From: an uncultured Bacteroides sp.
Lineage (GTDB): Bacteria; Bacteroidota; Bacteroidia; Bacteroidales; Bacteroidaceae
Reading direction: 5' to 3'
Assembly: GCA_944322285.1 (NCBI GenBank)
Contig: CALUOR010000034.1
Location: forward strand, 1-39,539
Length of the DNA stretch: 39,539 nucleotides
Positions 26,815 through 39,539 of the stretch are shown here, piece by piece; the first letter of the stretch is position 1, and every line of letters begins with the position of its first letter. The notes under the pieces were generated by a model. The model had not been told where the DNA came from. It did no database searches and saw only the letters and a program-made list of their open reading frames with translations. The translations under genes and the position numbers were made by a program.

Positions 26815-27342
26815 TTACTTATTCATCTCTAAAAACATTCCTAATCCTTTTCGTATGGACTCCAATCCGAATTCCTCCGGACGGATGTCCCGCAGGGGCA
26901 GGAAGAAAACCTCGGCGGCATCGTCCATGGCGGTGTAATGCAACGTGTCTTCCACCCGGCAACGGAAAAACATATCGAGCGTATGCACCAGGAAGCCTGA
27001 GTATAGATACAGGTTGGGCAACGAGAAAAGGTATTCCGTGCGGGTCACCATCAGTCCCGTTTCTTCTTTCACTTCACGTGCTACTCCCTCTTCGCCCGTC
27101 TCGTACATGTCAATAAAACCGCCCGGCAGGTCCAGCGTACCTTTGGCGGGGTCTTTGCCTCGCCGACACACGAGCAATTCTTCGCGGTCATTCTGGATGA
27201 GCGCCACCGTGGCCGATGACGGGTTGAAGTAATACACAAACCCGCAATCGCGGCAGGCTTTCGACTTGCCGTTGTGTACCTCGAAGTGGACGGAGCCGCA
27301 TCGGGGGCAATATTTAAACAATGACAAAGGATGTTCGGTCAT
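26815..27342 (-). CDS. Nudix hydrolase with zinc ribbon (NudC-like)
   Basis: With start ATG 27342 the protein has 175 residues. An N-terminal zinc ribbon has Cys12, Cys15, Cys30 and Cys33 (YCPRCGS ... CRDCG). The Nudix box is complete: Gly75, Glu81, Arg89-Glu90, Glu93-Glu94 and Gly96 (GGFIDMYETGEEGVARE, then VKEETGL). The layout resembles the C-terminal half of NADH pyrophosphatases, but the N-terminal domain and the SQPWPFPQS-type motif are missing. The substrate is therefore open. A longer frame to 27507 crosses the promoter and repeat region and is unlikely to be translated. Confidence 0.9.
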   Translation of the reverse strand: MTEHPLSLFKYCPRCGSVHFEVHNGKSKACRDCGFVYYFNPSSATVALIQNDREELLVCRRGKDPAKGTLDLPGGFIDMYETGEEGVAREVKEETGLMVTRTEYLFSLPNLYLYSGFLVHTLDMFFRCRVEDTLHYTAMDDAAEVFFLPLRDIRPEEFGLESIRKGLGMFLEMNK

Positions 27343-27375
27343 CAGTCCAAAAGTTAATAGGTTTATACTCTGCGG

Positions 27376-27383
27376 CAAATATA
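27376..27383 (-). promoter_or_regulatory. -7 box of the Nudix gene (TATATTTG)
   Basis: TATATTTG on the minus strand lies 33 bp before ATG 27342, which supports that start. The -33 region has no exact TTTG. Confidence 0.5.
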
Positions 27384-27449
27384 GCCATTTTTTTAATAGG
27401 ACGAAAAGACGGGGCTTAAATTCCCGTGTTTCACTCCGAAAACCGAGCC

Positions 27450-27520
27450 GCCCAAGTATCCAATATGAAAAGCCCAAGTATCCTTGGATAAATCGATGAA
27501 TATCCAATGATACTTGGGCT
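27450..27520 (-). terminator. Long-stem terminator of the LRR gene, with a duplicated arm
   Basis: AGCCCAAGTATC (27471-27482) pairs with GATACTTGGGCT (27509-27520), and the stem extends through TCCAAGG/ATTGGA-type bases. On the minus strand it is followed by TTTC, 32 bp after the LRR stop. A further direct copy of GCCCAAGTATCC lies at 27450-27461. Confidence 0.65.
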
Positions 27521-27551
27521 AGTAACCAATGATTCTTATTGAGGTACTTCT

Positions 27552-29714
27552 TTAGTTGGTTATTTCTAGTTTAATATATTTGTTTTCTGTTTCATATTGC
27601 ATATTTCCCTTTCCCTGCCACAAATTCTGTTCTTGGGTTTCGGTGAGATAAAGAGTCATAGGATTACTCTCACTAGTGCCTTTTTGGTTTCCGCAAGACA
27701 AATAAGTCAGTTTTGGATTGTTTGTTATATCCAATTCGGTCAAGTTGCAACGATTGCACTCTAAACTTTCCAAGTTTGGATTATTGCTTAAATCCAATTT
27801 ATTAATTGGGATAGAAGTACAACTTAAATCGTTTAACAAAGGAAAGAGACTTACATCTAGTTCTGTAATATTCAAGAAAGAACAATCCAATGATGTTAGT
27901 TTTGTATTGTTTGTCAAATCCAATTCTGTAATCTTTGTAAAGGAACAAGATAAATCTGTCAATTCTGTGTTCTTACTCAAATCCAGCTCAGTGATTGATG
28001 TTTCATGGCAATATAGAGTGTTAAGTACCGTGTTATTTCTTACATCTATTGAAGAAATGCCAGTTCCTCTACAGTTCAACTCTTTTAATTTTGTATTCTT
28101 ACTTATGTCAAGTTGAGTAATACTTGAACAGTTTACCATCCATAGATACCACAATTCAAGATTATGACTAACATCAATTGATGAAAGTAATGTGCAACCA
28201 TTCAAATCCGCATGTTCCAATTTGGTGTTCTTACTTAAATCAAGATCAGTAATGTCAGTATACTGACACATAAGATGTACCAATTCAACATTATTGGAAA
28301 TATTCAGTTCTGAAAGTTTTGTTTCCGAACATTCTAAATCTGTAAGTTTTGTATTTTTACTCAAATCAAGTGCCGCAATATTTGTTCGAGCGCATAGAAG
28401 GCGTTCCAAATCCAAATTATTGGAGAGATCTATTTCTGATATACCGGTCTCTTGGAAACTTAACATTTGGAGTTTGGTATTTTTGGAAACATCCAATTCC
28501 TCCAACTCAGGATTCCCGGTACAATCTAAGGCATTTAAATTGGGTAAATTAGAAACATCCAACGTTGTTAGGTTCTTGTTCATAGCTACCAAAGTTACTA
28601 AATCAGTGAAATATTCCAGTCCATCCAGATTGACTATTTCTTCAGCAGCTTCATCCAAATTTAAGATTTTAACTTGACTAATCTTCTCTTGATTAAGCGT
28701 CACGTTCACATATCCGTTTTCATCTTTTTCAAATGTCACATTATTCATTGTTTCCGCCAGCTTAATCAGCGGTAAGTTCGTAATCAACACTTCCGGTACG
28801 TCTTTTTTCCAAATGATACCTTCATCGGGTGTCTCAATGGTATTAAACCAATACCGTTTCCCCGCTTCAAAACCGCTGAACGATGTAAGCTCGCTCAAAG
28901 ACATTTCCAAATCCTTATCATTGATGCTGACGGTCAATGTACCATTGGACGCATCGTCACCCGGGAAGAAGAAAAAGTAGAAGTCGGTTGTGCGGCCGGA
29001 CGCAACGGTCAGGCCGGAGAAATCAAATGCGCAGGTTGAAGAGGTTTGGGTAGATGCAAGTGCATTATTCGCAAATTCGAACTTCGCTATGGAACCGAAG
29101 TAATTTCCTTCACCCGTAACGGTTACATTGGTTATGGTTTTATCCTCAGAAGTCGCGTTGGTGTAGGACACACGGATTAAGGAGCAAAGATGCTGGAAAG
29201 CAAGTTGCGTATTGTTTCCATCTATGGTGGCATCGGCATACATATACATAGATTGACGCATGTATTCCTTCCACTCTTCTGCCGAACCGGTCGTAATGGT
29301 TGCTGTGGGAAGTGTCAGTGTCGCTGCACTTTCGGTTACATTCCCTTCTTGTGCCGGATAGATGGCAACTACACTTGAATTGTTCGCGAAGTTACCTTCT
29401 CCCACAAAGGTTGCTTCAGTGCTTGATTCCTCTTCCGTATAACCTGAAATGGTGAAGGTGCCGGACGTGGTTGTCGGATTCGTTTTATCGTAGAGCGTAA
29501 AGCTGTCATTTTCGTTCCACATAAAGATTTCACGGGATTCGTCTTCCGTGCCCAATGCGATTTGCGCGCGAGTTTGCGGAGCCATGGTGGCGTGCAAGGT
29601 GACAACGCCTTCTGTCGCCTCGTGCCCGGCTTCCATAAAGTCATCGTTCTGGCAGGATGCCGCCAGCAGGGCGAACGGCAACACGGCCCATCCTAATTTA
29701 TTGTAGAGTTTCAT
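27552..29714 (-). CDS. Leucine-rich-repeat lipoprotein with fimbrillin-like N-terminus
   Basis: The 720-residue protein has a lipoprotein signal (LLAASC, lipid on Cys21). A fimbrillin/Mfa-like region of about 270 residues follows (APQTRAQIALGTEDESREIF, FVGEGNFANNSSVVAIYPAQ, ADATIDGNNTQLAFQHLCSL). From about residue 370 there are roughly 14-15 units of about 21 residues with the pattern LxxLxCxxTxITELDLSKNTKL. These LRRs resemble internalin/BspA-type adhesive repeats. It is probably displayed on the cell surface and binds protein or glycan partners, though no ligand can be read. It is the downstream neighbour of a second LRR lipoprotein with a different N-terminal module. Confidence 0.88.
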   Translation of the reverse strand: MKLYNKLGWAVLPFALLAASCQNDDFMEAGHEATEGVVTLHATMAPQTRAQIALGTEDESREIFMWNENDSFTLYDKTNPTTTSGTFTISGYTEEESSTEATFVGEGNFANNSSVVAIYPAQEGNVTESAATLTLPTATITTGSAEEWKEYMRQSMYMYADATIDGNNTQLAFQHLCSLIRVSYTNATSEDKTITNVTVTGEGNYFGSIAKFEFANNALASTQTSSTCAFDFSGLTVASGRTTDFYFFFFPGDDASNGTLTVSINDKDLEMSLSELTSFSGFEAGKRYWFNTIETPDEGIIWKKDVPEVLITNLPLIKLAETMNNVTFEKDENGYVNVTLNQEKISQVKILNLDEAAEEIVNLDGLEYFTDLVTLVAMNKNLTTLDVSNLPNLNALDCTGNPELEELDVSKNTKLQMLSFQETGISEIDLSNNLDLERLLCARTNIAALDLSKNTKLTDLECSETKLSELNISNNVELVHLMCQYTDITDLDLSKNTKLEHADLNGCTLLSSIDVSHNLELWYLWMVNCSSITQLDISKNTKLKELNCRGTGISSIDVRNNTVLNTLYCHETSITELDLSKNTELTDLSCSFTKITELDLTNNTKLTSLDCSFLNITELDVSLFPLLNDLSCTSIPINKLDLSNNPNLESLECNRCNLTELDITNNPKLTYLSCGNQKGTSESNPMTLYLTETQEQNLWQGKGNMQYETENKYIKLEITN

Positions 29715-29750
29715 AATGGTTATGCATTTATATGTTTTGTGTGATTAAAT

Positions 29751-29972
29751 GATAATTTAGCGGGCTGTTTTTAGGCACGGATTGCACGGATTGGTCACGG
29801 ATTTACTCAAGGTGTCCTTGTCATGTCGAGCTTGTCGAGACATCTCACGTAGCGCATGGGAAAGCATGATGTGAGACCCCTCGACTACGCTCGGGGTGAC
29901 AGAGACATAGCAAAAAAACTAAAATCTCTGTGAAATCCGTGTAATCCGTGCCTAAAACTAATTTCCCATTTA
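29751..29972. repeat. Dispersed nested hairpin element, copy 2
   Basis: The same outer arms as copy 1 occur at 29770-29792 and 29934-29956, with one mismatch in 23. The inner module differs: TGTCATGTCGAGCTTGTCGA pairs with CTCGACTACGCTCGGGGTGA-type sequence. A short AAATCGTAAATTGTAAATTG array follows (29982-30013). It fills most of the 303-bp gap between the two LRR genes. Confidence 0.9.
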
Positions 29973-30017
29973 CACTATAACAAATCGTAAATTGTAAATT
30001 GCTAAATTGTAAATAAA

Positions 30018-31967
30018 CTAATACACTCCTCCATTCCCGAAATCCTCACCGGAAGCTCCCGGCTTGAGCGTGCCGTCGGAAACAGTTACATTCTTGTTCG
30101 CCGATTCATTCTGCCACTGCGTTTCCCAAAGAGTCATCAACGATTCGGGCAAAATCAGCTCCAGTTGTTGGTCTGCACCATCGGTGGTTTGCTGTAATCC
30201 GCACCCAAGTGTTTCCAGCTTGGTGTTGTGGAGCGCGTTCAGCTTCGTCATTTGGTTGCCTTGGCAATTCAAGGCTTCCAGATTCGTGCAAAGCGTGATG
30301 TCCAGTTCCGTCAGCGCATTGTAGCTGCAAGTCAGAACTCTCAATAACTCCTTGTTGGCGGCTACATCGAGTGCGGTCAACTTATTGCTGGAAATATCCA
30401 AGACATTCAAGTTGGTCTGTTTGCTGATGTCTATGCTTGTCAATTTATTGTCAAAGCAATACAAAGAAGTTAAGTTCGGCACATCCGGCAATATCAATTG
30501 GGTCAAGCTATTTTGGGAGCATTCTACGCTTTGTAGCTTCGTATTGACACTTAAATCTAATTTACCGTTTTCATCTATGGATGCTCTGGTTGTTGAGTTG
30601 TTGAAACAATTGTTGCAAAGAAGTGTTTCCAATTCGGTTAAGCTCTCAAAATTCACAGTGGTAAGCGGATTCCCCGAACAATTCAGATATGTCAGGCTTG
30701 TTGTTTCAGATAAATCTAGCTCAGTCAATGAGTTTTCGGAGCAATCCAAATAAGTCAGATTGGTGAAGATTTCCACTCCTTCCAAGCTGGTCAGCTCTTG
30801 ATTACTCAAATTAAGTTCCGTGGTTTTCTGAATCTCTTCGGGGGTGATGGCCAGATTTCCTTCCGCATCCTTCTCACCCAAGCCAAGGTCTTCGAGGGCG
30901 GAAACCAAGTTCTCATTTTCAGTCTTATCTATCTGCATATTGAGTGAGGTCAACTTTATCTGATATTCAGTTACTTTATTGTCCGCTGCCACAAAGGTGA
31001 AATCAATCACGATGGAACTTTCTGTGGATGGGGCGGTTACGCTCAGTCCTTTGCCGTCTGTAGTCTTTTCAACTTTCCAATCGTTAGTTTCAGTTTCTTC
31101 GGTAGTCGCCTTCGTTTCGGGGGTGGAGGTTTCAAAGTCCCATCTTCCGCCCATGGAAGCTACGTTAATGGTAAATGTTTCATTGGGTTGTACATACAGT
31201 TCTCCGTTGGTAATAGGCTTGGCTTCTTCTCCTTCCCCACTAGGTGTATAGGTAAATGACAAACCTTCGATGTACTTCGGCACATTAATTGTTCCACCGG
31301 CATAAGTAAAGGCATAATAAGAACCTTTGTCCTCTACATTCGTAATAAAGCCGCTGCCGCTGGTTCCATCGTCACCGCTGACTTTCGTCCACGTCTTGCC
31401 TCCGTCTACCGACAAGTAAACGGCATCGGCAATATAGCCCGTACCCAGTTCAGAACCTGTCTTCAGCTGAGGAACCGGCGCCGAGCTGCCACTGCTTCCA
31501 CTATGTCCGTCGTCTCCGTCTTCACCGTCCTCACCGTCTTTTCCATCCTCACCATCCTTGCCGCTGGCGCAAATGGCGTTGCCTTTGTCATCGGTCAGCA
31601 ACTCGCCGTTCAGCGTCCAATACCAACGTCCGTCGTCTTTCTGTACAACACCGATAACGGGCGTCACGCCATCGGCTCCCTTCGTGCCATGATAAAGCGT
31701 AACATCTCCCTGACGGTAGAAGTGGATGGTGTAACCGATGACGGTGTCGCCTTCCTTTACCTCCTCTACACCGGTGATGTAGTCATTTCCGTTCACCAAA
31801 GCCTGCAAGGCGGTAATGTTCTCATTGGCCGTTTTCTGCCATTCCTCCAAAGCGGCAATGCGCTCCTCCTGGCTGTGGATGGCGTTCCATACATCCGTGT
31901 CGTCATAGTCGCAGCCACCCAGACCAAGCGACAGAAGACACATCGTTGCGTAGATTAACTTTCTCAT
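30018..31967 (-). CDS. Leucine-rich-repeat lipoprotein with DUF4988 and collagen-like stretch
   Basis: I start at ATG 31967, giving 649 residues and the lipoprotein signal MRKLIYATMCLLSLGLGGC (Cys19). An N-terminal coiled coil (VWNAIHSQEERIAALEEWQ) opens a DUF4988-type domain. A Gly-X-Y run (GKDGEDGKDGEDGEDGDDG, about residues 142-160) resembles collagen. A linker domain follows, then about 10 LRR units (LTYLDCSENSLTELDLSETT and similar). It is probably a surface-exposed adhesin-like protein. The 5' leader of this gene hosts the integrative element, so its expression may be altered. A GTG seven codons upstream is a weaker start. Confidence 0.87.
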   Translation of the reverse strand: MRKLIYATMCLLSLGLGGCDYDDTDVWNAIHSQEERIAALEEWQKTANENITALQALVNGNDYITGVEEVKEGDTVIGYTIHFYRQGDVTLYHGTKGADGVTPVIGVVQKDDGRWYWTLNGELLTDDKGNAICASGKDGEDGKDGEDGEDGDDGHSGSSGSSAPVPQLKTGSELGTGYIADAVYLSVDGGKTWTKVSGDDGTSGSGFITNVEDKGSYYAFTYAGGTINVPKYIEGLSFTYTPSGEGEEAKPITNGELYVQPNETFTINVASMGGRWDFETSTPETKATTEETETNDWKVEKTTDGKGLSVTAPSTESSIVIDFTFVAADNKVTEYQIKLTSLNMQIDKTENENLVSALEDLGLGEKDAEGNLAITPEEIQKTTELNLSNQELTSLEGVEIFTNLTYLDCSENSLTELDLSETTSLTYLNCSGNPLTTVNFESLTELETLLCNNCFNNSTTRASIDENGKLDLSVNTKLQSVECSQNSLTQLILPDVPNLTSLYCFDNKLTSIDISKQTNLNVLDISSNKLTALDVAANKELLRVLTCSYNALTELDITLCTNLEALNCQGNQMTKLNALHNTKLETLGCGLQQTTDGADQQLELILPESLMTLWETQWQNESANKNVTVSDGTLKPGASGEDFGNGGVY

Positions 31968-32053
31968 ACAGTTCGTCTTTTTACACACCTACAGGCTCAT
32001 TCGGTGCCGGTTATTACAGCTTGTTTCGTTGGAAGAATAGGGCATAAAAGAAA

Positions 32054-32159
32054 GTGTGAGCCTTTTTAACTAGATCCCGTTAAATGGCTCTGGACTGCCT
32101 GCGTAAAGGATGTAGAAAAGGGCTCACACCTTTGGCTGTATATGTAGGAAATACATATA
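32054..32159 (-). promoter_or_regulatory. Structured leader of the LRR/DUF4988 gene
   Basis: GTGTGAGCC (32054-32062) pairs with GGCTCACAC (32121-32129), with T- and A-rich flanks. On the minus strand the second arm is followed by TTTCTTTT, so it could be an attenuator. TATATGTA/TACATATA (32139-32159, 5-base loop) is a second hairpin. No binding protein is implied by the sequence. The 365-bp gap 31968-32332 holds these hairpins, the left att site and the first arm sites. Confidence 0.45.
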
Positions 32160-32205
32160 TACGAAACCAAAGGAAGAACGTCTTCTTATTCTATTTACGC
32201 ATTGA

Positions 32206-32219
32206 ATTGTCCAGATTCT
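32206..32219. other. attL core ATTGTCCAGATTCT
   Basis: This 14-bp sequence is identical to 36733-36746 and is followed by ATAATG here and TTAACG there. It is the likely left recombination core. It lies 239 bp before the LRR/DUF4988 start. No tRNA gene overlaps it. Confidence 0.75.
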
Positions 32220-32299
32220 ATAATGATAAGATGAAAATTGCTATTATCTTAATAATAAGCTGGGTAACTTAATACAAAAGGAGCGTTTATTACAGAAGT

Positions 32300-32325
32300 T
32301 TAAGAACCATTTTTAAGAACCATTT
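32300..32325. repeat. Left arm-type sites, two tandem TTAAGAACCATTT
   Basis: Two 13-bp copies are adjacent, starting 81 bp inside the left core and ending just before the integrase ATG at 32333. The same doublet, with the same orientation, recurs at 36673-36698. They are probable binding sites for the integrase arm-binding domain and may also control its gene. Confidence 0.8.
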
Positions 32326-32332
32326 TTATATT

Positions 32333-33658
32333 ATGGAAAAGCAAATCTTCTTATCTGACATTCGTTATCACTTCAATTTGAGGAAGCCAAATAAAGACAA
32401 GGCTACTAATATCTACCTTGTTTTGTATTTCAACGGCAAACAAATCAAATTGCCAACGGGATTAAAGGTTAATCCGTATTATTGGAACAAAGACAAGGAA
32501 GAAGCCTATATTAGCTTTAAAATAAACAAGTCTGATAACGATAATAATAAGATTGTCAACATTAGGATAAGGGAGATTAAAGATTCATTTGATAGATTCA
32601 AGGCTTATATTTGCGATAATCCTAACTTAATTGACAATATCAAGCCTATAATAAGAAGATTCATTTATAACAAAGAAAACGTAATTGATAAGAAAGCATC
32701 TTCTTTGCTGTTTGAAGCGTTTAAGAAAGCATATCCAAATGAAGAATGCGGAACATATAAGACAAATTATTATAGACTAAGCAACTTTATCCGATATTAT
32801 AAGGAAAACGCATTTGAAGATATTATCAATGTCGTATTAACCCAAAATATGTTGGATAGATATAAGAACTATCTTATTAATAAACAAGAAAACGGAGTGC
32901 AAAACATTAATGATAGATGCGAGATTGTCAAGCGTCTAATTAATGGGATATTGGCAGTTAATGAAGAATATAAGATATATGGGATTAATAAGGTAGAATA
33001 TATCAAGATAAAGGATAAGAGGAAAAAAGAAGATTCTAAGAAGTCACCATTAAAAGATGAAGAAGTTAATAGATTAGCCAAATTAAAATTAATGGGAAAA
33101 GAAGAAGAAATAAGAGATATATTCTTATTGCTTGTGTATTGTGGTATGAGAATAAGCGATATTGCAAGCGTTGTAAATGCCCCTATTAACTTGGATAATG
33201 ATAACGAAGAAGAACACATTATTTTGACCAAAAAGGAAAGTGTTGAGGCTGTTATTACTTTCAACAAACAAATGAAAATGATATTGAGGAAGTATAAAGA
33301 CGGATTCAAGTATGTCAATATATCCAAGGTTAATAATGTCATTGATACAATGATAAAGATTATAGCGAAAAAGGCTAATCTAAGGCGCAGGATTCAATGG
33401 AAAGAACAAATGGGAGACAATACCATTATTACAAAAGAAAAGCCGTTATATGAGATAATAAGCAGTCATTTCGCAAGGCATACGTTTATCACCAACAAGA
33501 TTATTGAGGGTTGGCAAGCTGATAAGCTATGCTTCGCCACTGGGCACACTGACGATAAAATGATTAAGCAAATATATACGCATTTATCAAATGAAAACAA
33601 AATTAACATAGTGCTTGAAGAAAAAAATAGGATAAAAAAGAAGAATGCCAGCAAATAA
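32333..33658 (+). CDS. Tyrosine recombinase (integrase), Bacteroidetes type
   Basis: The 441-residue protein has an N-terminal arm-binding domain (IRYHFNLRKPNKDKATNIYL, LPTGLKVNPYYWNKDK). A SAM-like core-binding domain lies in the middle. The catalytic residues are the first Arg in YCGMRISDIASV, the His-x-x-Arg box in SHFARHTFITN, the His in GHTDDKMIKQ and nucleophile Tyr415 (QIYTHL). It should cut and rejoin the 14-bp cores at the element ends. It reads inward from the left end. The lysine-rich, AT-biased codon use matches the rest of the element and not the flanking chromosome. No promoter match is clear; the arm sites sit directly upstream. Confidence 0.93.
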   Translation: MEKQIFLSDIRYHFNLRKPNKDKATNIYLVLYFNGKQIKLPTGLKVNPYYWNKDKEEAYISFKINKSDNDNNKIVNIRIREIKDSFDRFKAYICDNPNLIDNIKPIIRRFIYNKENVIDKKASSLLFEAFKKAYPNEECGTYKTNYYRLSNFIRYYKENAFEDIINVVLTQNMLDRYKNYLINKQENGVQNINDRCEIVKRLINGILAVNEEYKIYGINKVEYIKIKDKRKKEDSKKSPLKDEEVNRLAKLKLMGKEEEIRDIFLLLVYCGMRISDIASVVNAPINLDNDNEEEHIILTKKESVEAVITFNKQMKMILRKYKDGFKYVNISKVNNVIDTMIKIIAKKANLRRRIQWKEQMGDNTIITKEKPLYEIISSHFARHTFITNKIIEGWQADKLCFATGHTDDKMIKQIYTHLSNENKINIVLEEKNRIKKKNASK

Positions 33659-33661
33659 TCG

Positions 33662-33669
33662 TATATTTG
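33662..33669 (+). promoter_or_regulatory. -7 box (TATATTTG) of the coiled-coil gene
   Basis: TATATTTG fits TAnnTTTG and lies immediately after the integrase stop, 30 bp before ATG 33700. No -33 TTTG is seen. Confidence 0.45.
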
Positions 33670-33699
33670 TCGCCAGTATTAACCAATAAATGTAAGATT

Positions 33700-34071
33700 A
33701 TGGATGCTAAGCAAATTGAAGCAATGCAAATTGCACGAAGAACTAAGGCTATTAAGGCTTTTAATCCCGAATATAACTTTGAGGGTAAGACGCTTGAAGA
33801 TTTGAAGCGTTATATGGAAGAAAACAATATCAAAATGTCACGTTCAAAAAAGGAAGATAAGGAAGAAAAAGAAATAAGCATTGATGAAGTAATCAATAAT
33901 CTAATTGATGATTCGGCTAACGCTAAGACCGATGAAGATAAATTGAAGTTTTGGGACAAAATTCAAAAATGTAAAACCATTAAACATATAACTTCTGAAA
34001 TTGCAAAGAAAAAAGAAGAATTGGAAGTGATGGAAGCACAACTTCAACAATTAAAGGAAGAAATTAAATAA
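33700..34071 (+). CDS. Small charged coiled-coil protein of the element, function unknown
   Basis: This 123-residue protein begins MDAKQIEAMQIARRTKAIKA; I start at ATG 33700 because the reading frame upstream runs into the promoter and integrase end. The middle is lysine/glutamate-rich (SRSKKEDKEEKEISIDEVI). The C-terminus is a predicted coiled coil (KKKEELEVMEAQLQQLKEEI). I recognise no family. It could be an accessory or regulatory protein of the element. It lies between the integrase and a terminator and has its own -7 box. Confidence 0.7.
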   Translation: MDAKQIEAMQIARRTKAIKAFNPEYNFEGKTLEDLKRYMEENNIKMSRSKKEDKEEKEISIDEVINNLIDDSANAKTDEDKLKFWDKIQKCKTIKHITSEIAKKKEELEVMEAQLQQLKEEIK

Positions 34072-34084
34072 ACAGATAATAAAC

Positions 34085-34118
34085 AAGGCAGATAAATTAC
34101 TATCTGCCTTTTATTTTT
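34085..34118 (+). terminator. Intrinsic terminator after the coiled-coil gene
   Basis: AAGGCAGATA (34085-34094) pairs perfectly with TATCTGCCTT (34101-34110) around a six-base loop, followed by TTATTTTTG. It separates this gene from the convergent serine recombinase, whose stop is at 34120. Confidence 0.9.
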
Positions 34119-34119
34119 G

Positions 34120-34782
34120 TCATTCCAAATTATAACGCTTGATTATCCTAAATACTTGGATTGTATTAAACTTGCTGCCTTTTGATGTAACAAAGCCATT
34201 TTCATTTAATTTCCTTGCTATTTCGGCTTTATTTGAAGTTGTCTTTAATAATGCTTCAATCATGGACTTTGCACGCTTATTATTTTCGTTGTTATCCGCC
34301 TTTTCCTTTATTACTTGATAAGACAATTCACGCCATTCTTTTTTAAATGTGGCGTTTGGTCTGCCTAATTTAAATCCTTGCTTTTTCTTTTCTGCCAATG
34401 CCGCCTTTGTCCTTTGGCTGATTAATTCCCTTTCCGATTGTGCCAGCGTGGCAAATATGCCCAATGTCAACGTGTTAAAGTCTGGGCAATCCAAGGCAAC
34501 AAAGTTAATTCCACTATCACGCAAATTAAATAAGAAGCTAACCTTTCTTGATAACCTATCCAACTTAGCTATTATAAGTGTGGCGTTTTCTTTTTTGCAT
34601 AAAGATAAAGCCTTATTTAATTCTATTCTATTATCGCATTTGCCACTTTCTTTTTCGGCAAATTCATTAATCAATTCAACATCTTGCTTTGAATTGAGAT
34701 AATTCAATACGCTACTTCTTTGGGCATCTAATCCCAAACTTTGCTTTTGTGTCGATACTCTATAATAAGCTACATACTTCAT
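34120..34782 (-). CDS. Serine recombinase (resolvase/invertase family)
   Basis: The 220-residue protein has the resolvase catalytic domain with nucleophile Ser10 in YYRVSTQKQ. IIAKLDRLSRK carries the conserved arginines, and LGIFATLAQSERELISQRT is the dimerisation-helix region. A C-terminal helix-turn-helix follows (SNKAEIARKLNENGFVTSKG). Size and layout fit Tn3-type resolvases/invertases rather than large serine integrases. It may resolve dimers or act on a site inside the element. It has a strong promoter and faces the coiled-coil gene. Confidence 0.92.
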   Translation of the reverse strand: MKYVAYYRVSTQKQSLGLDAQRSSVLNYLNSKQDVELINEFAEKESGKCDNRIELNKALSLCKKENATLIIAKLDRLSRKVSFLFNLRDSGINFVALDCPDFNTLTLGIFATLAQSERELISQRTKAALAEKKKQGFKLGRPNATFKKEWRELSYQVIKEKADNNENNKRAKSMIEALLKTTSNKAEIARKLNENGFVTSKGSKFNTIQVFRIIKRYNLE

Positions 34783-34813
34783 ATCAATCTACTTTTATTG
34801 TTTCTTCTGCTGG

Positions 34814-34844
34814 CAAATATAGATATAATATCCTGAATAACAAA
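34814..34844 (-). promoter_or_regulatory. Promoter of the serine recombinase
   Basis: On the minus strand TTTG (34844-34841) and TATATTTG (34821-34814) are 19 bp apart, an exact Bacteroides -33/-7 match. The start codon is 31 bp downstream. Confidence 0.75.
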
Positions 34845-34985
34845 GAAATAACGAACATTTGCCGTATGTTATCTAAAATAAATCTGGAATAAGGGGGTTG
34901 ACATTTCCATGATTTACACTATACTTTATAGAGGATGAATATATTTATTATTAAAATAAACCTTTTAAAAGGCATCTAATATATT

Positions 34986-35174
34986 ATGATTATGAATGAT
35001 TCAATTAAAAGTAAAATCAGTGATTCAGTTAAAGCCTATTATCTTACAGAAGCTGGAATTAGGCATAAAAACAAATTAGCCTCAACTATGCGTATTAGAA
35101 TGAGACAATATAATAATTTCCTTAAAAATAATATCAATAAAACAAGTTATAACAATGAGCAAATTCAAAAGTAA
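34986..35174 (+). CDS. Small basic protein, NUMOD3-like helix pattern
   Basis: This 62-residue protein (MIMNDSIKSKISDSVKAYYL ... NKLASTMRIRMRQYNNFLKN) is basic and largely helical. The KSKISDSVKAYYLTEAGIRH stretch resembles the KKISESLKG pattern of NUMOD3 DNA-binding modules, weakly. Its 3' end overlaps the start of the Rep-like gene by 20 bp, so the two are probably translated together. It could be a DNA-binding copy-control or excision factor. That role is only inferred. Confidence 0.5.
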   Translation: MIMNDSIKSKISDSVKAYYLTEAGIRHKNKLASTMRIRMRQYNNFLKNNINKTSYNNEQIQK

Positions 35175-36063
35175 TATTTCAGTAGACAAGTTGGAACTGA
35201 CTTATCTGTTAACACATGAGTTTACGGATTTTATAGATAAATACATGGAATCCTATAATGATAGATTGGATAATACGGACAAAATAATATATGAATGCTA
35301 TAATGAGTTTTGTCTTGCTATCCCAAATGATACAATATATAATGATTATCGTATTGAACTTGATATATTAATTAGAGATTATAACGAAGAACAAGGATTA
35401 TTTTATAGAAGAATAGGAAAATTGTTCTATGGAAGCAATCACCCTCTAAGACAACAATTATATATTATATTGGATAATCAATCACTTTATAATAAAGATA
35501 TTAATTTCTTGTATTATATAGCAGATAGCCTTAATCTTCAATTTCTCAAAATATCAAAATTGGAATTAGCATTTGATTTTAATAGAAGTTTTATTGATAG
35601 ATTCTACTCAATTTTAAAAGATGAGGATTTTACACCTATTATTTTTAATAAAAGATATAAAGACATGGATGAAGAAATAGGGGAATTGTTGCATGTTTCA
35701 ACGGGTACAAGAAATAAATTAAATAAATTCAAATCGTTCTATTTAAAGAGTAATTCTAAATGTACTGATGGACTTGAATTAAAATATTATGATAAGGCTA
35801 AGGAGATTAAAGATAAGAATTTTGAAAAGCAATATATTATTGATAAATTGAAATTTAAGAATGTCTTTAGACTTGAAATAAAAACCAATCATAAGAAACT
35901 CAAATATACACTTGACAAGTTGGGGTTGAATGATGAGGATTTGTATATGAGATTGGAAGATAAAGAACTATTGCTAAAGGTCTATTACTTGCTTCTTCAT
36001 AGAATTATCAGAATTGAATATAAGAAGAAAGTATATTCTCTTTTAGATTTTATATTAGAATAG
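35155..36063 (+). CDS. Replication-initiator-like protein (Rep_trans / phage gene II-like), tentative
   Basis: The 302-residue protein starts MSKFKSNISVDKLELTYLL. It carries LKISKLELAFDFNRSFIDRF near residue 140. ELKYYDKAKEI near 205 and KNVFRLEIKTNHKKLKYTLDKL follow. The order 'xKLELAFDFN ... YDKxKE ... FRLEIR' resembles rolling-circle initiators of plasmids and filamentous phage (replication initiation factor and G2P-like families). No HUH motif is seen, so a Rep_trans-type active-site tyrosine would be needed. Homology is therefore uncertain. It overlaps the small basic protein gene and ends before a strong terminator. Confidence 0.5.
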   Translation: MSKFKSNISVDKLELTYLLTHEFTDFIDKYMESYNDRLDNTDKIIYECYNEFCLAIPNDTIYNDYRIELDILIRDYNEEQGLFYRRIGKLFYGSNHPLRQQLYIILDNQSLYNKDINFLYYIADSLNLQFLKISKLELAFDFNRSFIDRFYSILKDEDFTPIIFNKRYKDMDEEIGELLHVSTGTRNKLNKFKSFYLKSNSKCTDGLELKYYDKAKEIKDKNFEKQYIIDKLKFKNVFRLEIKTNHKKLKYTLDKLGLNDEDLYMRLEDKELLLKVYYLLLHRIIRIEYKKKVYSLLDFILE

Positions 36064-36093
36064 ATTTTTTATTTTAATCTATTTTTATACATT

Positions 36094-36120
36094 TCCCAGC
36101 CTAATTGTTATAGGCTGGGA
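36094..36120. terminator. Terminator between Rep-like and NUMOD3-like genes
   Basis: TCCCAGCCTA (36094-36103) pairs perfectly with TAGGCTGGGA (36111-36120) around seven bases. A T-run (CCTTTTTTGC) follows on the plus strand. The hairpin overlaps the last codons and stop of the NUMOD3-like gene on the minus strand. Confidence 0.85.
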
Positions 36121-36277
36121 ATTGCCTTTTTTGCTTCATTGATTCGCTTATTTTCCTCTTATGTTCTTCCGTCAACTTCCGTCCTTTCAATGACTGGCTT
36201 ATCTTCTTCTTATGCGTTGCAAGTTTCTTCCTGCCTTTTAATTTTGCTGAAATCTTCTTTTTTGTAAGTTCATCCAT
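36101..36277 (-). CDS. 58-residue free-standing NUMOD3-like protein
   Basis: The minus-strand frame starts at ATG 36277 and ends at TAG 36103-36101, too short for routine ORF calling. It encodes three back-to-back units of the form THKKKISQSLKGRK, ELTKKKISAKLKGRK and EEHKRKISESMKQKR. This is the NUMOD3 pattern normally found as a DNA-binding tail on GIY-YIG or HNH homing endonucleases. Here no nuclease domain is attached. It lies at the right end of the element, just inside the putative origin region. A role in binding the element ends or in regulating the integrase is only inference. Confidence 0.65.
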   Translation of the reverse strand: MDELTKKKISAKLKGRKKLATHKKKISQSLKGRKLTEEHKRKISESMKQKRQFPAYNN

Positions 36278-36672
36278 TCCGTATTTTTATAATAAATAGT
36301 AGGTAGGTTGGTTTTTACCATTAAATTTTGTCCTGGAAAATATCTGCAAAACCGTTATAGTAGGTAACTTGAATTAAGTATATTTAGTTGGTAGGGGTTA
36401 CATAAATACCATGTTCCTAACCGTGTTATTTCTTTGTTGAAATCAGATGAAAGATAAACGGAAAACCGTATTTATTAGCCTTATTTTGGAAGAATATAAT
36501 AAATAAGACAGCAGGAAATGGCGTTTTAAGGCTTCCTGTTGAATTTAATTTATTATCATGTATGATTTGTTATTTTTGAAATAAAAGCCGCTTAAATCGC
36601 TCTGGAATCAATCTTAAATTAATTTGGATTTTATTTTCTGGATTGCAGGATAATCAATACTTTAGCCAGCGA
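36278..36672. other. AT-rich right interior of the element; candidate origin or transfer region
   Basis: No gene is seen here. TAGTAGGTA occurs at 36298-36306 and 36358-36366, with a related TTAGTTGGTAGG at 36384. CAGCAGGAA pairs with TTCCTGTTG as an imperfect hairpin near 36510-36545. TTAAATCGCTCTGGA near 36592 resembles TTAAATGGCTCTGGA at 32081, outside the left end. A replication or mobilisation origin would fit the Rep-like gene, but nothing proves it. Confidence 0.4.
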
Positions 36673-36698
36673 TTAAGAACCATTTTTAAGAACCAAAT
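36673..36698. repeat. Right arm-type sites, TTAAGAACC doublet
   Basis: TTAAGAACCATTT followed by TTAAGAACCAAATTT matches the left doublet (32300-32325) over 23 bp, in the same orientation. It lies 37 bp inside the right core. Confidence 0.8.
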
Positions 36699-36732
36699 TT
36701 TGTAAAGTGATGGAAATAAAGGCAGGTAAGAT

Positions 36733-36746
36733 ATTGTCCAGATTCT
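36733..36746. other. attR core ATTGTCCAGATTCT
   Basis: This is the second copy of the 14-bp core, identical to 32206-32219. Downstream sequence (TTAACGTAGAATAAAGC) would be the right side of the uninterrupted target. Confidence 0.75.
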
Positions 36747-37429
36747 TTAACGTAGAATAAAGCTAAACGCTTCCTAAATATGTCTTGTTGCCATCTGCAA
36801 CGCGCCAAAGATACGTAAAGTTTAGCAAAGAACGTTCATTTGTGAGCCGTTATTTTGCAAATATAGTGATTTTTCTTGTCAAAATATAAATTCTTGACGA
36901 ATTTCCATCAAGAAAGGAGGAGATTCGTACAGCATTTGCCCGTTGAAATCAAGCCGACCGCATCCTGTCATATTGATGCCAATTCCGTTTAATTGCTATC
37001 GGAAAAGATACATATCCCCGTTTTCGCTGACTCTTCATTTATTCAAAACCGATGAAATAGAAACGTATAAAAATACCGCGTCCGAAAACACTTAAGTGTT
37101 TGGGGTCGGAACAGTTAAGTGTTATGCAGCCAACACTTAACTGTTTTGATGACAATACTTCGCCGACTGAGCGCAAAAAGTTAAGTTTTTCGGAGGAAGA
37201 TGTCGCCCAATCCGCTAACAATTGTAAAATGCATCTTAACAAACCTTTCAAATCAGGAAAAACGCGTTTCTAGAATTTGTAAATATTCAAGCAAAAATCA
37301 CGCTATCAATCTGAATATAAGCGAATAAGCGTTTCCGAAATCCGTTCTTTCCGTTCCATCCCTGTCTCGCTCCGAAACAAACGATTCTCGGCGATTAGGA
37401 AATACAAAGTGTAAGGAGTGACAAAATGG
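36747..37429. other. Intergenic region right of the element, with minus-strand promoter-like boxes
   Basis: No gene is supported in this stretch. TATCTTTG (36813-36806, minus) and TATATTTG (36865-36858, minus) fit the -7 consensus and point toward the element and the LRR lipoprotein. Neither has an ideal -33. TTCTTGA/TCAAGAA (36891-36914) is a small palindrome. Two open frames (37039-37251 and 37306-37521, minus) overlap palindromes and repeats and look spurious. Confidence 0.5.
37086..37145. repeat. Palindrome cluster of AACACTTAA sites
   Basis: AAACACTTAAGTGTTT (37086-37101) is a perfect 16-bp palindrome. AACAGTTAAGTGTT (37110-37123) and AACACTTAACTGTT (37132-37145) are perfect inverted copies with an eight-base loop. 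The three blocks share the TTAAGTGTT half-site. It could be a protein-binding array or a mini-repeat. Confidence 0.85.
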
Positions 37430-37642
37430 TAATTTAGCGGGCTGTTTTTAGGCAGGATTTCACGGATTAGACAGATTTCCTTAAACAAATGGTGTCTGTC
37501 ATGTCGAGCTTGTCGAGACATCTCATGTTATACTGAGTATGTGCTACGTGAGACCCCTCGACTACGCTCGGGGTGACAGGGCAAGCCCTTTAAAGAATCC
37601 ATGTAATCCGTGTAATCCGTGCCTAAAACTAAATTCCCATTT
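37430..37642. repeat. Dispersed nested hairpin element, copy 3
   Basis: It starts TAATTTAGCGGGCTG and ends CTAAATTCCCATTT like copies 1 and 2. The left outer arm is degraded (GGCAGGATTTCACGG), while the right arm is intact. The inner TGTCATGTCGAGCTTGTCGA module matches copy 2. The AAATCGTAAATTG array follows again (37648-37685). Confidence 0.88.
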
Positions 37643-37715
37643 AACAAAATCGTAAATCGTAAATTGTAAATTGCTAAATCGTAAATGAGCTAAATTCCCA
37701 TTTCTAGCCCTTTTA

Positions 37716-37747
37716 TTTGCCAGATAGGTTGCAAACACTTACTTTTG
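37716..37747 (+). promoter_or_regulatory. Promoter of the inositol-monophosphatase-family gene
   Basis: TTTG (37716-37719) and TACTTTTG (37740-37747) are 20 bp apart, an exact Bacteroides -33/-7 arrangement. The start codon is 28 bp downstream. Confidence 0.8.
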
Positions 37748-37775
37748 GGCATCATTTAGAGAAAGAGATAATAAT

Positions 37776-38585
37776 ATGTATATGGAACATTTGGAGACGT
37801 TGGCCCGTAAAGTGTGTGAGGTGGCACGCGAGGCCGGACATTTTATAAGGGAAGAGCGCAAGCGGTTTAAACAGGATGCTGTGCGTGAGAAACGGGTGCA
37901 CGACTATGTGTCCTATGTAGACAAGGAATCGGAGCGGCGTATCGTGTCTGCCCTGCGTACGTTGCTTCCCGAGGCAGGGTTTATCACAGAGGAAGGTTCG
38001 GCTGTTTATCAAAACGAACCTTGTTATTGGGTCGTAGACCCGCTGGATGGCACTACCAACTATATACACGATGTATCGCCTTACTGCGTAAGCATCGCCT
38101 TGCGTAGTCGGGAAGCATTGCTGCTAGGCGTGGTTTATGATCCTTCGCTTGACGAATGTTTTTATGCCTGGCAAGGCGGAGGTGCTTACCTGAACGGTGT
38201 GCCCATGCATGTGTCCGGTGTAGATTGTGTGGAGAATGCTTTCTCATTCATCGAATTGCCCTACGAGGCCGGGCACTATAAACAGACAGGCTTACACTTG
38301 ATAAACCGGTTGTATGGACGGGTGGCAGGCATACGCATGAACGGATCGGCGGCATTGGCTTTGTGCTATGTGGCGGCTGGCCGCTTTGATACTTGGCAGG
38401 AAGCGTTTATAGGCAAATGGGATTTCTCGGCTGCGGCATTGATGGTGATGGAAGCCGGTGGACGGGTGACTGATTATTATGGCAGTCCGCATTTCCTGGA
38501 AGGACATCATATTGTGGCCACAAACGGATTGTTGCACGATGAAGTGTTGCGTCTGCTTTCAGAGGCGCTTCCTGAAGGAATGTAA
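37776..38585 (+). CDS. Inositol monophosphatase family protein (SuhB/CysQ type)
   Basis: The 269-residue protein carries the metal-dependent phosphatase motifs: TEEG (71-74), DPLDGTTNY (88-96) and the C-terminal KWDFSAAALMVMEAGGRV. These coordinate the catalytic Mg2+ ions. Family members dephosphorylate inositol phosphates, PAP/PAPS or sugar phosphates; the substrate here cannot be assigned. The ATG at 37776 is used; a second ATG lies two codons later. The ComF-like gene begins 10 bp after its stop, so they form an operon. Confidence 0.93.
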   Translation: MYMEHLETLARKVCEVAREAGHFIREERKRFKQDAVREKRVHDYVSYVDKESERRIVSALRTLLPEAGFITEEGSAVYQNEPCYWVVDPLDGTTNYIHDVSPYCVSIALRSREALLLGVVYDPSLDECFYAWQGGGAYLNGVPMHVSGVDCVENAFSFIELPYEAGHYKQTGLHLINRLYGRVAGIRMNGSAALALCYVAAGRFDTWQEAFIGKWDFSAAALMVMEAGGRVTDYYGSPHFLEGHHIVATNGLLHDEVLRLLSEALPEGM

Positions 38586-38595
38586 GGAGGTTGGC

Positions 38596-39303
38596 GTGTC
38601 AGGCAATTCATTGATGCTTTGGTTACAATCCGCGTTCCGCCTGCTTTTTCCGAGGCGTTGCGCCGTATGCGACACTACATTGCAGGACGGTGAAGAAGCG
38701 TTGTGCTTTCGTTGTAATATCAATCTGCCCCGCACATATTACCATTTGGAGAAAGACAACGAAGTGGACAAAATGTTTTGGGGAAAGATCCCTTTGGTGC
38801 GCGCCACATCTTATATATTTTACCAAAAAGGCGGAGATTTCCGCCGCATCCTGCACTTGCTGAAATACAGCGGACATAAAGATTTGGGTAATACAATGGG
38901 ACGGATGATGGCGGCAGACATTGGCAGAAGCGGCTTTTTTGAAGGCATAGATGTCATTGTGCCCGTGCCTTTGCATCCGGCCAAACTGCGGCAGAGAGGA
39001 TATAACCAAAGCGAGTGTCTGGCCAAGGGTATATCGGAAGTAACGGGCATTCCGGTAGATACGGCAACCGTAAAACGTCGTGTACATACCTCTACCCAAA
39101 CCCGAAAGTCAGTCTACGAACGCTGGGAGAACGTCCACGATATATTCTATGTTACCGACAAAGCCAAGTTTGCGGGTCGTCATGTGCTCCTTGTGGACGA
39201 TGTGCTGACAACAGGCGCTACCTTGACTGCTTGTGCCGATGCGCTGGCCGATGTGGAGAATGTGAGATTCAGTGTGTTGACGCTGGCGGTGGCGAGAGGA
39301 TAA
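38596..39303 (+). CDS. ComF-family phosphoribosyltransferase-like protein
   Basis: The protein has an N-terminal Cys zinc ribbon (RRCAVCDTTLQDGEEALCFRC). A phosphoribosyltransferase domain follows with VPVPLHPAKLRQRGYNQSE and the PRPP-loop VLLVDDVLTTGATL. ComF proteins are linked to DNA uptake in naturally competent bacteria, but many carriers are not known to be competent. GTG 38596 lies six bases after AGGAGG, so I prefer it. ATG 38614 (MLWLQSAFRLLFPRR) is the alternative and also gives a typical ComF start. It follows the IMPase gene in the same transcript and ends at a strong terminator. Confidence 0.9.
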   Translation: MSGNSLMLWLQSAFRLLFPRRCAVCDTTLQDGEEALCFRCNINLPRTYYHLEKDNEVDKMFWGKIPLVRATSYIFYQKGGDFRRILHLLKYSGHKDLGNTMGRMMAADIGRSGFFEGIDVIVPVPLHPAKLRQRGYNQSECLAKGISEVTGIPVDTATVKRRVHTSTQTRKSVYERWENVHDIFYVTDKAKFAGRHVLLVDDVLTTGATLTACADALADVENVRFSVLTLAVARG

Positions 39304-39336
39304 AGCTTTGAATGAGTTGCGAGGAAGTAGAAAAGA

Positions 39337-39367
39337 AAAAGGAGAAAGACGGAATCTTTCTCCTTTT
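39337..39367 (+). terminator. Intrinsic terminator after comF
   Basis: AAAAGGAGAAAGA (39337-39349) pairs perfectly over 13 bp with TCTTTCTCCTTTT (39355-39367) around a five-base loop. A short T-run is part of the second arm. Confidence 0.9.
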
Positions 39368-39496
39368 AGTACCCAGACCCGGTACAAGGCATAGAAATCA
39401 TAGGAAAATAAAAGAATTTATCTTCCTTATTATCAGTTATTTGCATCTTTCTTATTTTCTCCATTTTTGCCATATTTTGCCCATTTTTCGTCATTA

Positions 39497-39517
39497 AGTA
39501 CACTTTTAGTACACTTT
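39497..39517. repeat. Tandem AGTACACTTTT at the right edge
   Basis: AGTACACTTT occurs twice, 11 bp apart (39497-39506 and 39508-39517). CCATTTTTG-type repeats (39461-39490) precede it. No gene can be supported between the comF terminator and the window end. Confidence 0.5.
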
Positions 39518-39539
39518 GAAATTCCATTTTCTTTTGTAC

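Follow-up and report, generated by a model that had tools for sequence, protein, structure and literature searches.

A Compact Integrative Element of Bacteroidales with a Rep_trans-Type Protein and an Attachment Site within a Candidate Leader RNA

We describe a small integrative element from an uncultured Bacteroides sp. (GenBank assembly GCA_944322285.1, contig CALUOR010000034.1), located at positions 32206–36746 of the 39,539-nucleotide stretch that was analyzed and that we call the window. The element is a discrete integrative unit bounded by two copies of a 14-bp core. We consider it probable that it represents a compact Bacteroidales integrative element built on a Rep_trans-type replicon, in which a tyrosine integrase would use the core and neighboring 13-bp doublets, a Rep protein would sustain rolling-circle replication, a small serine recombinase would resolve multimers, and spread would depend on a helper, the integration site itself lying in a candidate leader RNA.

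Limits of the Element and Empty Sites

The core ATTGTCCAGATTCT is found exactly at 32206–32219 (attL) and 36733–36746 (attR), on the forward strand in both cases, and nowhere else in the window at up to two mismatches. The repeat alone is not strong evidence, as 4 of 100 shuffles also gave at least two matches at this tolerance. The strongest support for the ends is external, because five relatives have the flanks joined via a single core. When 119 genomes of the genus were searched for the right flank, seven places outside the element's own genome were found, among the matches listed, to touch the core-adjacent stretch (loci L116–L122), and five of these (L116, L119, L120, L121, and L122) are empty sites, in which the left flank, one core, and the right flank follow each other without the element. 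The core is identical to that of the window in L116 and L121. In L117 and L118, the right-flank match starts only just past the core; L117 lies at a contig end, and L118 carries a DDE transposase gene (PF01609) at the core-adjacent place. Since the empty sites join the flanks through a single core, the insert amounts to 4,527 bp, including one core copy.

The element is also set apart by its composition, its GC content in 1-kb windows being 0.25–0.33 versus 0.42–0.51 immediately outside. An earlier note on this DNA, made from the letters alone, had proposed identical 14-bp ends, 13-bp tandem doublets in the same orientation just inside them, and an AT-rich interior, all of which we recovered. 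It had also suggested looking for sites where the two flanks meet at a single core, which exist in five genomes, and had held that flanks joined without the core in relatives would speak against the element; the five empty sites all keep it. A transposon or insertion sequence was considered and rejected, because single-core empty sites together with an integrase indicate site-specific recombination, and because no DDE transposase was found among the six open reading frames (ORFs) of the element. Inverted 14-bp copies (AACAAAGAAATAAC, at 34839 and 36425), considered as invertase sites, were likewise dropped, about 0.4 being expected by chance according to a hand estimate.

Integrase and Doublets

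The first gene of the element encodes a 441-aa tyrosine integrase (32333–33658, forward strand; PF00589, 3e-11; PF17293, 8e-5). Its stretches CGMRISD, HFARHTF, GHTDD, and YTHLS contain the expected R, HxxR, H, and Y, which we take to fill the usual roles of these motifs. The integrase gene, the serine recombinase gene, and the Rep-like gene named in the earlier note are all borne out, the first two by Pfam directly and the third through its relatives.

Both ends of the element carry, in the same forward orientation, a tandem doublet of the 13-bp unit TTAAGAACCATTT. At 32300–32325 both units are exact; at 36673–36698 the first is exact and the second has two mismatches. The two doublets have a 23-bp exact repeat in common. 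Tandem pairs with periods of 11–16 that recur at a distance of 2.5–16 kb were sought in 586 kb of sequence from 52 Rep loci and in 187 kb from 20 control loci. Eleven recurring pairs were detected, all with a period of 13 and all in Rep loci; periods of 11, 12, 14, 15, and 16 yielded none, nor did the 20 control loci. Five of these pairs repeat others, as L181, L184, and L186 cover places already represented; the six distinct pairs belong to four loci, the window and L020, L022, and L073, where the period of 13 is present at both ends. The unit is TTTGACACCAGT or its complement in these three relatives and TTAAGAACCATTT in the window, so that the sequence varies but the spacing does not. The doublets of L022 fall within a 15-bp repeat located at the 3′ end of a GMP synthase gene. 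The doublets look like arm-type integrase sites, a reading suggested by the fact that the core would sit between the two doublets in a circular form. Extra period-13 doublets beyond the first are seen in L020 (6201–9281) and L073 (9880–11131), one set being at the start of a serine recombinase fragment; they suggest stacked elements.

A Group of Relatives with Exchangeable Integrases

Searches for relatives of the Rep protein gave matches in 12 of 301 family genomes when the window protein served as query and in 7 of 393 genomes of the order, the own genome being counted in both cases. A nine-sequence profile gave matches in 26 of 399 family genomes (including a distant match in G298 and several fragments). 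An alignment of six Reps without that of the window led to 19 named loci from Bacteroidaceae, Bacteroides, Paraprevotella, Muribaculaceae, and one Bacteroidales, 17 of which are titled as ruminant gut samples. The earlier note could not match the gene set to a named family; given these relatives, the gene set is not an orphan, even though we found no published description of the group. A search of genome contigs with the window Rep returned nothing.

Gene content was compared in 12 loci, selected among 33 with a Rep as having one of at least 250 aa (26 loci) and lying at least 3.5 kb from both stretch ends; the window copy falls outside this set only because the window ends soon after the element. 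Of the 12 loci, 11 have a small NUMOD-like gene (within 400 bp), 11 have a small serine recombinase (no more than 7 kb away), and 11 have an integrase (no more than 9 kb away), the exceptions (L039, L040, and L077) being one per gene class. The integrase is of the tyrosine type in four loci and a large serine enzyme in seven, and the two types never occur together in the 26 loci with a full-length Rep. Given this near constancy on one side and the exchange of integrase types on the other, the small serine recombinase (220 aa in the window, 34120–34782, reverse strand; PF00239, 5.2e-27) looks like the constant partner of the replicon, probably its resolvase, and the integrase like its exchangeable part. 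We thus rejected the possibility of two alternative integrases within one element, the small serine enzyme accompanying either type. The two unrelated recombinase types noticed earlier are indeed both present, but they are probably not rival integrases.

Some relatives carry antiphage genes. Nine proteins were submitted to the cargo search, three of which gave no match; the others include AbiLi/AbiLii-like and GmrSD-like genes in L018, DndD- and DndH-like genes in L024, and a type III restriction enzyme in L037. For relatives, separate cores were recognized: at the 3′ end of the GMP synthase gene (L022), at that of a tRNA-Asn gene (L082), and over 31 bp in L040. Of six loci with a large serine integrase that were scanned for tRNAs, five (L016, L021, L039, L079, and L080, the sixth being L018) show an overlap between the end of the integrase gene and a tRNA gene. 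These data add to the Bacteroidales a group of very small integrative elements whose integrases are exchangeable and whose Rep_trans-type replicon is nearly always accompanied by a resolvase-like enzyme.

The Rep Protein and the Remaining Genes

The Rep protein (302 aa, 35155–36063, forward strand) is a putative replication initiator or nickase of the Rep_trans type, placed in this family through its relatives and its active-site residues. The relatives in L083 (9e-5) and L041 (6e-4) match PF02486 (Rep_trans), both under the cut-off, and one relative matches Phage_CRI at 0.054. In a single hhalign comparison, a profile of 21 Reps aligned with four Rep_trans-type proteins with a probability of 98.2 and an E-value of 2.7e-14, one of the four, that of L083, having itself been found with a Rep profile, so that the comparison is not fully independent. 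A profile search of the PDB with the Rep gave nothing, and PHROGs gave only weak and scattered matches for it (best 0.0013, for one of nine members). The window protein has three acidic metal ligands, D11, D141, and E241, as well as the motif Y212-x-K214-xx-E217, and these residues are invariant in all 26 Reps longer than 230 aa (window included, shorter fragments left out), a further count giving 21 of 21. In the MOBT relaxase RelSt3, D72, D177, E280, Y252, and K254 are essential for nicking and E257 is important (PMC6499999; this paper and PMC5704250 are cited here from excerpts). The window residues follow the same order and the Y-x-K-x-x-E spacing is identical, the matching of motif to position being our own. 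The window protein resembles the Rep_trans nickases, all active-site residues being in place, and is a plausible initiator, as first suggested.

The statement in the earlier note that the element has no relaxase is, in contrast, unsafe, because the Rep_trans family is related to MOBT relaxases and has its active-site residues in common with them (PMC5704250, PMC6499999). The element might then be an integrative mobilizable element (IME) in the strict sense, whose Rep_trans-type protein serves mainly as a relaxase, like MOBT, and which spreads by helper conjugation. The window Rep has the whole set of common residues, and it is the only relaxase candidate beside integration machinery and specific attachment sites, which the integrase and the empty sites document. 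Moreover, in the excerpted streptococcal survey, 45 of 118 IMEs with relaxases related to rolling-circle replication (RCR) initiators carried MobT/Rep_Trans and 35 of 118 had no coupling protein (PMC5704250). However, the MOBT set is described as having an N-terminal helix-turn-helix (HTH) before PF02486 (PMC6499999), whereas the window Rep gave no HTH match and its first catalytic residue, D11, is already in the nuclease domain. Besides, no coupling protein was matched among the six ORFs (Pfam, NCBIfam, and PHROGs, as for all gene classes searched below), an origin of transfer was not identified, and the near-constant small serine recombinase suggests replication. We regard this account as possible but on the whole doubtful.

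The annotated Reps that bridge to PF02486 come from single-stranded DNA (ssDNA) phages of Cellulophaga: two of the four hhalign targets have this origin, and the Rep of phi18:4 scores above the cut-off of PF02486. It nevertheless seems highly unlikely to us that the element is a satellite or a remnant of such a phage, with a phage-derived Rep and packaging by a helper. Among the six ORFs, we found no match to capsid, packaging, capsid-hijacking, or morphogenesis genes, in line with the earlier remark that a capsid gene is missing; two protein scans of viral contigs, based on short peptide patterns, revealed no Rep relative; and the defense genes of some relatives fit islands of several kinds.

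The element might also be a decayed, immobile island whose genes are relics, as it is known as one copy in one assembly and as rep is broken by stops in some relatives (L005, L013, and L014). We deem this improbable because the main genes are open, no catalytic residue is missing, and the two core copies do not differ.

The remaining ORFs are small. A 123-aa ORF (33700–34071, forward) has no convincing match. A 62-aa ORF overlapping rep (34986–35174, forward), without a Pfam match, appears to be a distant member of a NUMOD-like small-protein group (group profile, 1.5e-11), to which the 58-aa NUMOD3-like protein encoded at 36101–36277 on the reverse strand is more similar (PF07460, 3.7e-4; group profile, 3e-22). 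None of the six ORFs matched defense models. The non-coding stretch at 36278–36672 is a candidate replication origin by its position; it contains TAGGTA/GGTAGG motifs, for which no conservation was found.

An Attachment Site within a Candidate Leader RNA

The element interrupts a conserved stretch on the reverse strand, whose left part lies at 32035–32219 and whose right part, on the promoter side, adjoins attR at 36747–36861. The right part holds TATCTTTG (36806–36813, reverse strand), a box of the type TAnnTTTG, which we assume to be a promoter consensus. Downstream lies a gene for a leucine-rich-repeat (LRR), DUF4988 protein (30018–31988, reverse strand; PF12799, PF16378). A DNA search with the interrupted stretch matched 52 of 301 genomes of the family, some only partly. 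We aligned 32 distinct copies, oriented toward the downstream gene, some being shorter upstream. A like-placed box, 37–44 nt away from the upstream end, is present in 25 of the 32. In 20 of 25 contexts, an ORF of 75 codons or more starts between −30 and +120 nt of the copy end, and in 24 when the limit is set at 300; two of the 25 contexts have one gene in common.

A structure of 84 pairs was derived from 20 of the sequences, and 79.2% of its cells pair, versus 35.5–44.8% when partners were slid by one to three columns and 70.1% when they were shuffled. The covariation score is 0.349 versus 0.190 after shuffling (reached in 0 of 500), and 48 pairs show changes on both sides versus 41.3 (9 of 500 shuffles reach 48); the comparisons are biased toward the structure, since some of these sequences also served to derive it, and relatedness among sequences can by itself outdo shuffles. 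The closing helix stands out, with 93.4% of cells paired and both-side changes in 15 of its 18 pairs. Folding does not settle the strand: L116 alone folds better on the opposite one (z of −7.25 versus −5.68), whereas alignment folding slightly favors the proposed one (−86.8 versus −82.0). The strand was thus assigned on the promoter box and the downstream ORFs. We read the leader as a candidate cis-acting, covarying RNA of about 285 nt, of which L116, L119–L122, and loci between L127 and L176 hold copies.

The 14-bp core corresponds to alignment columns 163–176. It makes up the inner half of the 5′ strand of the closing helix and so takes part in 9 of the 18 pairs of this helix. These nine are restored at attL; the six pairs next to them on the outer side all form in the empty-site order, and four of them also form at attL, with element bases. 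An end-to-end match of the hairpin model (32231–32074, 127 bits) is found at this place, the promoter-side part being beyond attR. The hairpin at attL is thus nearly, although not wholly, restored.

A covariance model of the leader detected it in 120 of 301 genomes of the family at E ≤ 0.001, at up to six places per genome, these E-values being rough and 13 of the 120 having supplied model sequences. Rfam 15 gave no match over the leader at E ≤ 1 in window positions 27000–39539 and 14 loci (L117 and L118 holding only part of it). Downstream genes encode an outer-membrane barrel (L119), a zinc-ribbon protein (L122, and L121 under the cut-off), the LRR/DUF4988 protein of the window, and others that we named lipoproteins by eye. 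Inside a Rep element, L040:4519–4651 matches the model weakly (E = 0.004), with closing-helix strands that by eye seem to fit. The gene that follows has an outer-membrane-barrel match under the threshold, so that the leader class seems to precede cargo of L040 itself.

We put forward tentatively, at a little less than an even chance, that this leader forms a new class of structured 5′ leader RNAs, widespread in the family and preceding unrelated surface, lipoprotein-like, and zinc-ribbon genes; that attB is provided by one half of the closing helix's 5′ strand; that the hairpin is re-formed at attL upon integration, in the way that tRNA genes are by other integrases, with the promoter becoming disconnected; and that L040 would tie the RNA to mobile elements. 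Newness was judged here against Rfam 15; PMC2864571 lists two Bacteroidetes motifs, Bacteroides-2 and GUCCY-hairpin, without an Rfam number. These data expose a folded leader, as a candidate RNA, in about 40% of the sampled genomes of the family, cut by the attachment site at a precise structural position, and the leader may be a more novel part than the element.

Recombinase genes end at most about 50 bp upstream of the leader in L119 and L172 (serine) and in L120 and L121 (small tyrosine), and a small tyrosine recombinase gene ends at about 215 bp in L157, suggesting that other integrative elements abut the leader. To the right of attR, a 500-bp stretch with AACACTTAAGTGTT-type repeats (36928–37428) recurs in the same genome (L126:2737–3237) with 94% identity.

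Proposed Cycle of the Element

In the explanation we favor, the tyrosine integrase would recombine the core of a circular form with the same core in the chromosome, its N-terminal arm-binding domain holding the 13-bp doublet on each side. After excision, Rep would nick the circle and initiate rolling-circle replication, and the small serine recombinase would resolve the resulting multimers. Spread from cell to cell would need a helper, either a conjugative apparatus using Rep as a relaxase or a phage. Integration would keep an almost complete hairpin at attL and move the leader promoter 4.5 kb away, with a possible effect on the downstream gene.

Several points weigh against this explanation. 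Excision and the circle are themselves inferred, and no free or packaged form is known, because plasmid and phage collections, queried with the window Rep or a central Rep, and viral collections gave no Rep relative (the viral scans relying on short peptide patterns). Pfam does not match the window Rep directly, and one of the four hhalign targets, L083, had itself come from a search with a Rep profile. A replication origin was not located by comparing the non-coding stretches with those of L027, L076, L077, and L081, the window giving only weak matches of 12 and 19 bases (E of 0.03 and 0.13), taken as chance. L040 lacks the small serine recombinase. As for the doublets, the L020 and L073 elements are closely related (their Reps are 93% identical), and L038, L040, and L082, which have a tyrosine integrase and context on both sides, contain no period-13 pair, so that the rule is not general. 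Of the minimal replicating, integrating element envisaged in the earlier note, integration between defined ends is documented by the empty sites, and replication has a plausible initiator by its active-site residues.

Comparison with Known Systems

The element is a member of a Bacteroidales group of integrative elements that we found described nowhere: in searches that left most subscription journals outside their scope, no title named this gene set in Bacteroidales or the leader RNA. Lambda and CTnDOT have bidirectional tyrosine integrases with arm-type sites. The window element resembles them in the core placed between sites on both sides, as in attP, and in the arm-binding domain (PF17293) of its integrase, but its sites are tandem pairs with a 13-bp period. 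The Rep_trans (PF02486) initiators of the ssDNA Cellulophaga phages phi18:4 and Omtje are similar to its Rep by profile and have the same catalytic residues, whereas the window Rep has no Pfam match and no structural genes beside it. The Bacteroides mobilizable elements NBU1, NBU2, and MTnPi4 have canonical relaxases. They are Bacteroidales elements with a tyrosine integrase, like that of the window, but their sites are 3′ ends of tRNA genes, according to the excerpted table of PMC5704250.

The streptococcal IMEs with MobT/Rep_Trans, as described in the excerpts of PMC5704250, likewise combine a site-specific integrase, of the tyrosine or serine type, with a Rep_trans-type protein, and the 3′ end of guaA, the site of L022, is listed there as a target of other, non-streptococcal IMEs. 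Compared with the streptococcal elements as presented in these excerpts, the group described here differs in that it belongs to Bacteroidales, has a Rep without an N-terminal HTH, shows no coupling protein match, and includes a near-constant small serine recombinase and a NUMOD-like protein, and in that the target of the window element is a candidate leader RNA.

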